Assembly: GCF_903064525.1 (NCBI RefSeq)
Contig: NZ_LR797830.1
Location: 2,046,001-2,110,000, forward strand
DNA: 64,000 nucleotides
Origin: Methylacidimicrobium sp. AP8
Lineage (GTDB): Bacteria; Verrucomicrobiota; Verrucomicrobiia; Methylacidiphilales; Methylacidiphilaceae
Direction: 5' to 3'
The position numbers and the translations under genes are program-made. The notes under the pieces are model-generated. The model saw only the letters and a program-made list of their open reading frames with translations. It had not been told where the DNA came from and did no database searches. Shown piece by piece: positions 57,059 to 64,000 of this stretch (position 1 is the first letter of the stretch; each line of letters begins with the position of its first letter).

Positions 57059-58672
57059 ATGTCTCATCCGCCCAGGAGCCGAGCGATAACCGCCGGCGCC
57101 CACCCGGACGGATCGGCGACGGATGCGCCCGAAGTCGAAAGCCGGATCGTCGTGCTCGACTTCGGCTCGCAGTATACCCAGCTCATCGCCCGCCGCATCC
57201 GCGAGTTGGGGGTTTTCTCGGAGATCGTTTCTCCGCAGACGCCCGCCGTAGAGCTGGCCCGCCCCGGCGTCCGCGGTCTCATCCTCTCCGGAGGACCGTC
57301 GAGCGTCGCGCAAGAAGGATCGCCGTTGCCCGACCCCGAGATCTTCTCCCTCGGGATTCCGGTGCTCGGCATCTGCTACGGCCTGCAGGCCATGGCGCGG
57401 CTTTTGGGCGGAGAGGTCGAGCGAGCACGGTCCGGCGAATATGGGCGGGCGGTCCTCGAATGGAGGGAGCCTTCCCCGCTTTCCGCCGAGCTTCCCAACC
57501 ATTCGGCAGTTTGGAACAGCCACGGGGACCGGGTTTCCCGCCTTCCCGAGGGCTTCGTGGTGCTGGCCCAGACCGAAGAAGAGCCGCACGCGGCGGTCGC
57601 CGACCTCAAGCGGCGGCTCTACGGGCTTCAGTTCCATCCCGAGGTAACCCACACCGAATTCGGGAAGGAGATGCTCGCCAACTTTCTCTTCCGAATCTGC
57701 CACGCTCCCGCCAGTTGGAAGCTCTCCTCTTTCCTCGACCGGAGCTGCGCCGAGATCCGCGCCCGGGTCGGGAACGAGCGGGTGCTCCTCGGCTTAAGCG
57801 GCGGCGTCGACTCGAGCGTGACCGCCGCCCTGCTTCATCGGGCCATCGGGGACCGGCTCCACTGTCTTTTCGTCGATAACGGCCTTCTGCGCCAAGGAGA
57901 GGTCGAGACGGTACGCCACCTATTCGGCGAGGAGATGGGCTTTGCCGTCCACTTCGTGGATGCCTCGGCGCGCTTCCTGGGGAAGCTGCGCGGAGTCGCC
58001 GATCCCGAACGGAAGCGGAAGATCATCGGCAGAGAGTTCATCCAGGTCTTCGAGGAGGCCGCCCGAAGCCTGGGCCCGGTCCGATACCTCGCCCAGGGAA
58101 CCCTCTATCCCGACCGCATCGAAAGCGCGGCGGCTGGCCATGGGCGGCCGGCGGTGATCAAGAGCCATCACAATGTCGGCGGTCTGCCCAGGCGGATGAA
58201 GATGCGCCTAGTGGAGCCTTTGCGGCTTCTCTTCAAGGACGAGGTCCGCGAACTGGGCAAACTCTTGGGGCTGCCCCGCGAGATCCTCCACCGGCACCCC
58301 TTCCCCGGCCCGGGCTTGGCAGTCCGCTGCCTGGCCCCGATCACCCCGGAGAACCTTGCCCTCCTCCGCGCCGCCGACGCGATCGTGGTCGAGGAGATCC
58401 GCCGGGCCGGGCTCTACGACGAGGTCTGGCAGGCCTTCGCGGTCCTCCTCCCCATCCGGAGCGTGGGAGTCATGGGCGATGCGCGGACCTACGAGCTGAC
58501 GGCTGCGGTCCGTGCGGTGCAGAGCGTCGACGGGATGACCGCCGACTGGGCCCGGCTGCCGGCGGAACTCCTCTCCCGGATCGCCAACCGGATCATCCAG
58601 GAGGTCCGCGGCATCAATCGGGTCGTCTACGACATCTCCTCCAAGCCACCTGCCACCATCGAGTGGGAATGA
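57059..58672 (+). CDS. guaA: GMP synthase (glutamine-hydrolysing)
   Basis: XMP to GMP amination, 537 aa. The glutaminase domain has [23 protein letters not shown], Cys in [17 protein letters not shown] and [12 protein letters not shown]. The ATP-pyrophosphatase domain has the PP-loop [27 protein letters not shown] and [11 protein letters not shown], and the dimerisation tail ends [13 protein letters not shown]. The first ~28 residues are a polar extension. Its 3' end is the site beside which the mobile element begins. Confidence 0.97.
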
Positions 58673-61403: not shown

Positions 61404-61625
61404 ATGGAGCCAAGGCAGAAAGTGTTGATCAACCGGAAGAAGCTCCACTCGATGATCCCACTCAGCGAGCGGACCATCTTCAACATGGAGCAGCGGGGAG
61501 AGTTCCCCAGGCGCATTGCGTTGACCCGACGCAACGTTGCGTGGGATCTGACTGAAGTCGAAGCCTGGATCGAGGCGAGGAAAGCGTCCTGCCAGCAGGC
61601 GGACCGTCCTGGAGGCGGGCAGTGA
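61404..61625 (+). CDS. AlpA-like MerR-type regulator/excisionase
   Basis: 73-aa winged-helix protein. LINRKKLHSMIPLSERTIFNME, GEFPRRIALTRRNVAWDLTEVEAWIEAR is the AlpA pattern (recognition helix, then wing with W). A perfect GGAGG lies 8 nt before the ATG. Such proteins control integrase or replication genes of P4-like elements. First gene of alpA-repA-repC; overlaps repA by GTGA. Confidence 0.87.
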   Translation: MEPRQKVLINRKKLHSMIPLSERTIFNMEQRGEFPRRIALTRRNVAWDLTEVEAWIEARKASCQQADRPGGGQ

Positions 61626-62500
61626 CGATGACGGTCAACGTGCAGGCCGCGTTCGAAAACGATCCGCCTGCGCTCGACTTCGTCTGGCCCGGCTTTCTCG
61701 CTGGTACGGTCGGAGCGCTGGTGGCTCCCGGTGGCGCGGGCAAGAGCTTCTGGGCGCTGGAGGCGGCAATGGCCGTTGCAGGCGGGGATGCTCCCGGCAG
61801 TGATCTGCTCGGGCTTGGGCCGTCACGGGCTGGGCGGGTGGTCTACTTTGCCGGCGAGGATCCGGCCCCGATCCTTGATTGCCGCATCCATGCCATTGGC
61901 AGACATCTGAGCGACACAGCGCGCTCGGCCATTGCGGGCCGGATGACCGTCGAGCCGGTCGCAGGCAGCTCCATGAATGTCACGGACAGGCACACGCTGC
62001 ACCAGTTGGTGGAGAAGTGCTCGGGGGCGCGCCTCGTTGTGCTGGATACGTTGAGCCGCATGCATCGTCTTGACGAAAACAGCAACGGGGACATGGCGGT
62101 GGTGGTGGCGTGTCTGGAGCGCCTTGCACTGGAAACGGGAGCGTCCGTCTTGTTCCTGCACCACGTCAGCAAGGGCAGCGCACGAGAGGGGGCCACCGAT
62201 CACCAGGGAGCCGCGCGGGGTGCGTCGGCGCTTGTCGACAATGCCCGGTGGTGCGGGTTCATTGCACCCATGACTTCAGAGGAGGCCGCACGCCTTGGGG
62301 AAGAACCCAAGGGTGCGCCACCTATCGGCGAGGCGCGCCGCAGGCATTTCGTCCGTGTTGGTGTCTCCAAGCAGAACTACGGAAGCGCGCCGCCGGACCG
62401 CTGGTATTCGCGGGACGGCCATGGCGTGCTCCTGCCGGCAGCGTTGTCGGCTTCGGAGCCGACCGGCCGCAGAAAGGGGGCGCATCGTGCACAAGCCTGA
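61622..62500 (+). CDS. repA: IncQ-type replicative helicase RepA
   Basis: 292-aa RecA-fold hexameric helicase, close in order of motifs to RSF1010 RepA. It has PPALDFVWPGFLAGTVGALV, Walker A PGGAGKSFWAL, YFAGEDPAP, Walker B RLVVLDTLSRMHR, LFLHHVSKGSAREGA..QGAARGASALVDNARW, and SKQNYGSAPPDRWYSRDGHGVL. GTG start with GGAGG 6 nt before; an ATG lies two codons later. It unwinds DNA after RepC opens the origin in IncQ plasmids. Presence in a chromosomal island is unusual. Overlaps repC by 14 nt. Confidence 0.9.
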   Translation: MTMTVNVQAAFENDPPALDFVWPGFLAGTVGALVAPGGAGKSFWALEAAMAVAGGDAPGSDLLGLGPSRAGRVVYFAGEDPAPILDCRIHAIGRHLSDTARSAIAGRMTVEPVAGSSMNVTDRHTLHQLVEKCSGARLVVLDTLSRMHRLDENSNGDMAVVVACLERLALETGASVLFLHHVSKGSAREGATDHQGAARGASALVDNARWCGFIAPMTSEEAARLGEEPKGAPPIGEARRRHFVRVGVSKQNYGSAPPDRWYSRDGHGVLLPAALSASEPTGRRKGAHRAQA

Positions 62501-63335
62501 GCTGACGCACGCGCGCCATGACCCGATCCATTGCCTGGCACCGGGCTTGTTCCGCAGTCTCCAGAAGGGCGAGCGCAAGCGTGCCAAGCTGGATGTCGTC
62601 TATGACTTCGGCGACGGCAGGCGGGTGGAGTTCAGCGGTCCCGAACCGCTGGGAGCGGACGACCTGCGCATCTTGCAGGGCCTGGTGGCCATGGCGGGGC
62701 CGGCTGGGCTGGTGCTTTCACCCGAGCCGCAAACGGAGGCGGGCCGGCAGCTCCGGCTGTTCCTTGAGCCCAAATGGGATGCGATCCGGCAGGATGCGAT
62801 GGTTGTCAGGGGAAGCTACAGGGTACTGGCACGTGAAGTCGGCTACGCCAATGTGGATAACGCCAAGCCGATCCGAGACTGCATCGAGCGTCTCTGGAAG
62901 GTCTCGGTCATCGTGCAGGATGGGAAGCGGCGCCAAGGCTTCAGGCTTCTTTCGGAGTACGCCAGCGACGAGCACGACGGAAAGCTCTACGTGGCGCTTA
63001 ACCCCCTTCTGGCCCGTGCCGTGATGGGCGGTCAGCACGTGCGGATCAGTATGGGCGAGGTGCGGGCTCTACGAACCGATGCTACGCGCCTCCTCCACCA
63101 GCGCCTGTGCGCCTGGATTGACCCAGGCAAGTCGGGCCGTGCGGACATCGACACTCTGTGCGGGTACGTTTGGCCCGACGCAGCGGTGAATGCCAACACG
63201 GTCAAGACCCGGCGTCAGACAGTCCGCCGTGCCCTGGCTGAGCTGGACGCGCTGGGCTGGAGAGTGGAGAGCTACACCAAGGACAAATGGGAAATCTCCA
63301 GGCCCAAGCTTACCGAACCCCGGCTGGGGCGGTGA
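62487..63335 (+). CDS. repC: IncQ-type replication initiator RepC
   Basis: 282 aa, the length of RSF1010 RepC (283). Very close to it by memory: HDPIHCLAPGLFRSL, KGERKRAKLDVVYDFGDGRR, EFSGPEPLGADDLRILQGLV, AMVVRGSYRVLAREVG, DCIERLWKVSVIVQDGKRRQ, GFRLLSEYASDEHDGKLYVA, LLHQRLCAWIDPGKSG, DTLCGYVWP. The initiator binds iterons and opens the origin. GTG at 62487 has AAGGGGG 6 nt before. It is followed by three 22-bp iterons, its presumed target. Neither RepB primase nor mobilisation genes are present in the visible element. Confidence 0.93.
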   Translation: MHKPELTHARHDPIHCLAPGLFRSLQKGERKRAKLDVVYDFGDGRRVEFSGPEPLGADDLRILQGLVAMAGPAGLVLSPEPQTEAGRQLRLFLEPKWDAIRQDAMVVRGSYRVLAREVGYANVDNAKPIRDCIERLWKVSVIVQDGKRRQGFRLLSEYASDEHDGKLYVALNPLLARAVMGGQHVRISMGEVRALRTDATRLLHQRLCAWIDPGKSGRADIDTLCGYVWPDAAVNANTVKTRRQTVRRALAELDALGWRVESYTKDKWEISRPKLTEPRLGR

Positions 63336-63347
63336 GCATGCGTGGGG

Positions 63348-63413
63348 CCCACTTTAACGCCACCCAACCCCCACTTTAACGTCACCCAATCCCCACTTTA
63401 ACGCCACCCCGAT
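63348..63413 (+). repeat. Three tandem 22-bp iterons (putative RepC-binding oriV)
   Basis: CCCACTTTAACG followed by C/T and CACCC recurs with exact 22-bp period at 63348, 63370 and 63392. Copies 1 and 2 differ only at positions 13 and 21 (C/T each); copy 3 matches over its first 18 bases. 22-bp iterons in small tandem sets are characteristic of IncQ-like origins (20-22 bp). They begin 12 nt after the repC stop. Confidence 0.85.
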
Positions 63414-63545
63414 GATGCAAAAAAATTCAATAAATACAATGTGTTATGAGAGGTCTGGAAATGCTTTCCAAGATTATCCAAGAGATAATCCACTAACCGA
63501 ACTTCCGCTGTGTAGTGTCGCAAGTGATTGTAGCAGAACGTTAAG
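63414..63545. other. AT-rich segment with inverted repeat, putative origin-opening region
   Basis: Clearly AT-richer than its surroundings (about 60 % AT by eye) directly after the iterons, as in iteron plasmid origins. GATTATC and GATAATC (63472-63478 and 63484-63490) form a 7-bp inverted repeat that could act like an ssi primase site; no DnaA box was noticed. No supportable ORF. Confidence 0.55.
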
Positions 63546-63560
63546 ACTTTTTCGTTCTGC

Positions 63561-64000
63561 CTACATGGCCCATTTGGGCGGGCGAGCAAAGAGGGGGAGG
63601 AGGTCGAGCTTTTGGAGCAGTGCGTTGATGTCGGCGGGGATCTTGGAGAAGAACCCGATCAAAGGCCGTCCGTTTGGGGCAAGCCGGATCAAGCGGATCG
63701 CCTGAAGGCGGCGGAGCACTTGGGCACCTCTTCGGTAAACCCTTTGGCCACCCATTCGGTCCTGAGGCGGGCATTCATCCAGAAAGCCAAGAAGCAGATT
63801 CTCACGTGGTTGCGGACCCGATCGGGCCGCCAATGATAGACCGGACGGACTTCGAGGTAGCTCTTGAGTTCTGAAAAAGCGGCCTCGACCTCTGCGAGCC
63901 GCTTGTAGTGGGTCAGCACCTCCTGAGGAGAAGCCTTGGCGGACGGGAGGTTGGTCTCCAAAAGATACCAGCCGTCGATCGCCTCTTCTTCTTTGACCCG
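63561..64000 (-). pseudogene. IS1634-like transposase C-terminus, frameshifted, cut by window edge
   Basis: Reads in from the right edge: HYKRLAEVEAAFSELKSYLE and VRPVYHWRPDRVRNHVRICF (the Glu-containing part of the DDE domain), then changes frame after GFTEEV at about 63725 and continues as VLRRLQAIRLIRLAPNGRPL ... LLPLFARPPKWAM to a stop at 63561-63563. One missing A in the AA of CCCAAGTG would restore the frame. It is a different copy from the one at 37.7-39.4 kb (the VRPVYHW and LRPIYHH segments differ). Confidence 0.78.

Follow-up and report, generated by a model that had tools for sequence, protein, structure and literature searches.

The 3' end of guaA in Methylacidimicrobium sp. AP8 carries an integrative element in which a tyrosine integrase is followed by a reverse-strand gene, alpA, repA, repC and three 22-bp iterons (Table 1). 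The window analysed is a stretch of 64,000 nucleotides, positions 2046001-2110000 of a single-contig genome of 2.30 Mb; the element spans 58661 to about 73690 (~15.0 kb) and extends beyond it, and the right flank was fetched as a separate locus, L009, whose position p equals window position 58000+p. Without its two insertion sequences (IS) the element measures about 11.8 kb. Past the second IS lie, in order, genes for a TraJ/NikA-like protein and a serine recombinase, then for an Eco57I-like methyltransferase paired with an XhoI-type endonuclease, and finally for a TrlF/Ppl-like ATPase. The original prediction had placed an IncQ-type replication module at 61404-63545; the module does lie inside this interval, but the interval begins with alpA rather than repA and ends about 50 bp inside the first IS.

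Table 1. Features of the element and its guaA flank, in window positions unless L009 is named
Feature	Position	Strand	Remarks
guaA (GMP synthase)	57059..58672	+	host gene; 3' end is the integration site
attL core GAGTGGGA	58661..58668	+	last codons of guaA
tyrosine integrase, 408 aa	59064..60290	+	Pfam PF00589, 2e-24
conserved island gene, 350 aa	60303..61355	-	C-x2-C...C-x2-H zinc-like motif, C-terminal HTH
alpA, probable excisionase/regulator	61404..61625	+	Pfam PF05930, 1e-10
repA, hexameric helicase of RSF1010/IncQ type	61628..62500	+	Pfam AAA_25, 2e-38
repC, predicted IncQ iteron-binding initiator	62487..63335	+	Pfam PF06504, 8e-146, full length
three 22-bp iterons CCCACTTTAACGCCACCCAACC	63348..63413	+	19/22 to iteron of IncQ plasmid pBRST7.6
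A+T-rich stretch after iterons	63414..63450	+	same position in L048/L049
ssi-like hairpin GATTATC-CAAGA-GATAATC	63472..63490	+	counterpart of IncQ oriV hairpin
left half ATCCACTA of 15-bp IncQ-conserved oriV motif	63488..63495	+	IS-interrupted
native host IS, DDE transposase, about 1.81 kb	63496..64000, on to about 65309	-	several genomic copies
second native IS, ISL3 family	about 65522-66933		beyond window; multicopy in genome
TraJ/NikA-like gene	L009 9259-9633		beyond window
XhoI-type endonuclease + methyltransferase, then TrlF/Ppl-family ATPase	L009 10398-15562 (window-equivalent 68398-73562)		defence cargo

Integration at the 3' end of guaA

Two pmoA-type genes, together with nearest genomes that fit verrucomicrobial methanotrophs, bear out the expectation that the chromosome is non-proteobacterial. 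The guaA product is 85-88% identical in amino acid sequence to those of congeners, indicating that the gene is native, and congener G004 provides an empty site, in which guaA is followed by the same downstream ORF and then by hisD; guaA, the hisD-adjacent ORF and hisD are thus native genes that are neighbours in that congener. Five of six congeners (L014-L016, L018, L019) have other sequences immediately 3' of guaA, and congener G001 (L015) has a different guaA-proximal integrase gene, now containing stops. The genus seems to have an integration hotspot at the guaA 3' end.

The attL core is identical to the published core of GIsul2, an island of E. coli 6409, Shigella flexneri 2457T and A. baumannii that inserts at the same guaA sequence. 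No perfect copy of this core occurs at the right end, the sole other copy on the plus strand lying inside the methyltransferase gene; at about 73680-73690 there is instead ATAGAATGGGA, whose core, GAATGGGA, matches GAGTGGGA at 7 of 8 positions and which fits the family attR of the relatives, ATAGAGTGGGA. This degenerate copy fits an attR of the kind found in the family. The guaA-specific tyrosine integrase is 85% identical to that of GIsul2 at the amino acid level and 79% at the nucleotide level; a tyrosine integrase next to guaA had been proposed and is confirmed. In a search of plasmid records for a free circular form, the integrase matches above 80% identity listed in PLSDB proved to lie on large replicons, with a 29.7-kb Vibrio record as the one exception.

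Homologues of the reverse-strand gene between the integrase and alpA occupy the same position in many family islands; GIsul2 is without one. Its product matches no Pfam, NCBIfam or PHROGs family above cut-off, and its AlphaFold model (pLDDT 82, pTM 0.56) has no whole-fold match, with weak HTH-type matches only, e.g. to KorA and the LuxR family. We infer that the gene probably encodes a DNA-binding regulator.

Replication genes and a divided origin

RepA matches the solved RSF1010-type RepA (PDB 1g8y/1nlf/1olo) with E=7e-69, the comparison to RSF1010 RepA having been made via the PDB chain. The Walker A motif (GGAGKS) and the E77-D78, D140 and H178-H179 positions are all present, and K39 (the Walker A lysine), E77, D78, D140, H178 and H179 are invariant in the alignment. 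RepC is 78.7% identical in amino acid sequence to that of the IncQ plasmid pBRST7.6. These results, with the Pfam matches in Table 1, uphold the assignment of both proteins to the IncQ type. No match to the MobA-RepB primase of pBRST7.6 was found anywhere in the element, and this primase is likewise missing from the annotated genes of GIsul2.

The repeats 3' of repC also proved to have the exact period claimed for them: their spacings are 22 and 22 bp, the copies are 100, 91 and 82% identical to the first, and their tandem score is 31, whereas 2000 shuffles reached no more than 11. About three 22-bp repeats follow repC within ~40 bp in nearly every family island, and are shared by several plasmid-like records in which oriV adjoins repC; the iteron sequence is group-specific across the islands and the 22-bp period is constant (many of the GIsul2 copies listed in this survey are near-identical and were counted as one). 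Common to the IncQ plasmid and the islands is a hairpin 3' of the iterons, the arms of which vary by group yet stay complementary (GATTATC/GATAATC, AGATTCT/AGAATCT, GATTTTC/GAAAATC); the IncQ stem is offset by one base and is thus out of register in a sequence alignment. A version of the 15-bp motif then follows in part of them. This motif, CTGCGCCTAGTGGAG, is reported to be conserved in IncQ oriVs (PMC7557826); it is exact in pBRST7.6 and is found at 13/15 in L048, L049, L054, L074, L075 and L123, where the chance expectation with two mismatches is about 0.05 per 20 kb.

In AP8 the first IS lies inside this motif: ATCCACTA stops at 63495, and CTAGGCGCGG continues beyond the IS. A test for a contiguous IncQ-type oriV accordingly finds the left hairpin present and the 15-bp motif split at 63496, whereas the motif is contiguous in L048 and L049. 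To call the locus a nearly complete IncQ replicon was therefore too strong, since the element has no RepB primase and a host IS splits its oriV motif. The literature found, which does not include the original description of GIsul2 (Harmer et al. 2017), makes no mention of iterons or an ssi-like hairpin in guaA islands, and we claim no novelty for them.

Relatives of the element in Proteobacteria

A scan for RepC across genomes returned 80 loci, most of which have guaA, a related integrase (80-99% amino acid identity), alpA, repA and repC in this order; RepC was found in none of 387 other genomes inferred to be Verrucomicrobiota. The element is indeed an integrative one with a plasmid-type initiator, but its build, presented earlier as a plasmid/island hybrid, is the published int-alpA-repA-repC layout of GIsul2 in guaA, which is widespread in Proteobacteria and is not new. 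GIsul2 has the same gene order, three 22-bp iterons after repC and the same oriV hairpin, with amino acid identities to the AP8 element of 85% for int, 78% for alpA, 43-44% for repA and 58% for repC. In E. coli 6409 the order is guaA-int-alpA-repA-repC-trbJKL-ars-CR2-sul2; the AP8 element is without the genes that follow repC there, with no match to trbJ or trbL and no ars or sul genes among its ORFs, and has, unlike GIsul2, the reverse-strand gene, the TraJ/NikA-like gene, the XhoI-type restriction-modification genes and TrlF. ICERspD18B of Rheinheimera sp. D18 is likewise a guaA island with int, alpA, repA and repC, but has relaxases, trbJKL and resistance genes that the AP8 element lacks.

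The AP8 replication module resembles those of IncQ2-typed plasmids more closely than that of GIsul2, RepA being 60-61% and RepC 77-79% identical in amino acid sequence to those of pBRST7.6 and pLAtc1 (IncQ2 according to MOB-suite). Plasmid pBRST7.6 shares the iterons, the hairpin and the 15-bp oriV motif with the AP8 element; it differs in having a mobA/repB primase-relaxase and no integrase, and its oriV lies elsewhere, away from repC. In a RepC tree, the AP8 copy groups with those of Chelativorans and Saccharophagus on a starred branch. Islands and plasmids are interspersed in this tree, and the starred branches force at least 8 changes, although some of the rows without an integrase are short contigs, possibly cut islands, so that the true number of changes would be smaller.

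The island of the alphaproteobacterium Chelativorans petroleitrophicus (L048) is 97-99% identical in nucleotide sequence from int through the iterons and 93% before int, and that of the gammaproteobacterium Saccharophagus sp. K07 (L049) is 98% identical for int, the reverse-strand gene, alpA and repC, and 79% for repA. Both occupy the same guaA site, and the guaA genes beside them are only 69% identical; a core at 97-99% next to a guaA at 69% indicates recent transfer between phyla and not contamination. The element came recently from Proteobacteria, and its near-identity crosses phyla into a methane-oxidising verrucomicrobium. It is the host phylum and this near-identity to proteobacterial islands that are remarkable, not the type of element. 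A GIsul2-type island, a clinically relevant carrier of sulphonamide resistance, is now seen nearly identical in a second phylum, which shows how far such islands travel; for the AP8 genome it is otherwise ordinary, an island gained by horizontal transfer whose origin an IS has damaged.

The L048 island is cut by a contig end, and that of L049 differs in its cargo. In the latter (L049 6568-6969, 10839-10900), int is frameshifted and a 44-nt deletion has removed two of the three 22-bp iterons, leaving one; this copy may therefore be decaying, and the module can decay.

Proposed mechanism, alternatives and cargo

We conclude with considerable confidence that this is a guaA-specific integrative and probably mobilizable element of the GIsul2 kind, which arrived recently from Proteobacteria, later received IS insertions and is perhaps replication-defective. 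Its integrase, with AlpA as the likely directionality factor, would insert a circular form into guaA, at the GAGTGGGA core of its 3' end, and would also excise this form. Both reactions have been observed experimentally in relatives and are presumed for the AP8 element: the GIsul2 integrase excises and integrates its island at guaA, a circular form has been reported, and deletion of alpA/repA/repC leaves integration unaffected (PMC9376610), while for ICERspD18B a circular form and conjugative transfer to E. coli are on record (PMC7775301).

In IncQ plasmids RepC acts on the iterons, RepA unwinds the DNA and RepB primes at ssi sites (PMC6925257). On a free circle of the element, RepC would bind the 22-bp iterons and RepA would open the neighbouring A+T-rich DNA, after which synthesis would start at the hairpin and 15-bp ssi-like sites and proceed by IncQ-style strand displacement; since there is no RepB primase, the host or a helper plasmid would have to supply the priming. 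The excised form might in this way be kept briefly and survive transfer and establishment in distant hosts. The TraJ/NikA-like protein suggests that an IncP-like helper could mobilize the element; no relaxase was found in the element. Nic-like octamers flank the TraJ/NikA-like gene, CATCCTGC upstream and TATCCTGC downstream (L009 9183-9195, 9690-9705), but their conservation is too low for us to propose them as oriT, and they are oriT candidates only. After arrival, two native IS inserted, the first parting the iterons and hairpin from the remainder of oriV, so that the AP8 copy may be replication-defective or impaired. The family could plausibly replicate once excised, but for the AP8 copy this is doubtful. 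A review already lists GIsul2 RepA and RepC as candidate maintenance functions (PMC5704250), and the idea therefore has a precedent; the literature searched contains no demonstration of replication by a guaA island of the GIsul2 kind.

The replication genes could instead be passengers, decaying remnants of a captured IncQ plasmid that serve at most in incompatibility or regulation, a reading consistent with the lack of a primase, the IS in the AP8 oriV and the loss of two iterons in Saccharophagus. We regard it as rather unlikely, since in dozens of islands the frames stay open and an array of 22-bp iterons persists at the same place, with sequences that differ and a period that does not change, which argues for selection on the module, and since RepC is still so close to its plasmid relatives. 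Less probable again is the opposite view, that the AP8 copy is a fully functional plasmid/island hybrid, able in its present host to excise and to replicate in the manner of an IncQ plasmid. The Int, AlpA, RepA and RepC frames, the iterons, the A+T-rich stretch and the hairpin are all intact, and SGI1, an integrative mobilizable element that replicates like a plasmid following excision (PMC7826253), offers a precedent, albeit one that uses trmE as its site and an IncN2/N3-like RepA as its replicon; against it stand the 1.8-kb IS within the oriV motif, the missing RepB primase and the mismatch in the attR core. A proteobacterial contig joined to the chromosome by contamination or misassembly, which the near-identity of the core to Proteobacteria might suggest, is improbable in the extreme: the genome is a single contig, the IS within the island are native and multicopy, both ends have att sites, and the conserved chromosomal flanks meet at the empty site of a congener.

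That a family without a primase conserves its iterons and an IncQ-like origin raises the questions of whether the excised islands replicate and of what primes them. Tentatively, and with somewhat more doubt than conviction, we suggest that the guaA islands are integrative IncQ-type replicons that have kept iterons and ssi-like sites, have lost their cognate RepB and may borrow a primase after excision, thereby crossing phyla with defence cargo.

The guaA island of Vibrio sp. MEBiC08052 (L086) contains the same serine recombinase-methyltransferase-XhoI block as AP8, at 75/75/89% amino acid identity, indicating that cargo also circulates within the guaA-island family. At the cargo position of the Saccharophagus island (L049 13600-19350) there are BREX-like genes, including one for a 1152-aa BrxC-like protein, and a nearby VapBC-like pair, these names being assigned by sequence only.
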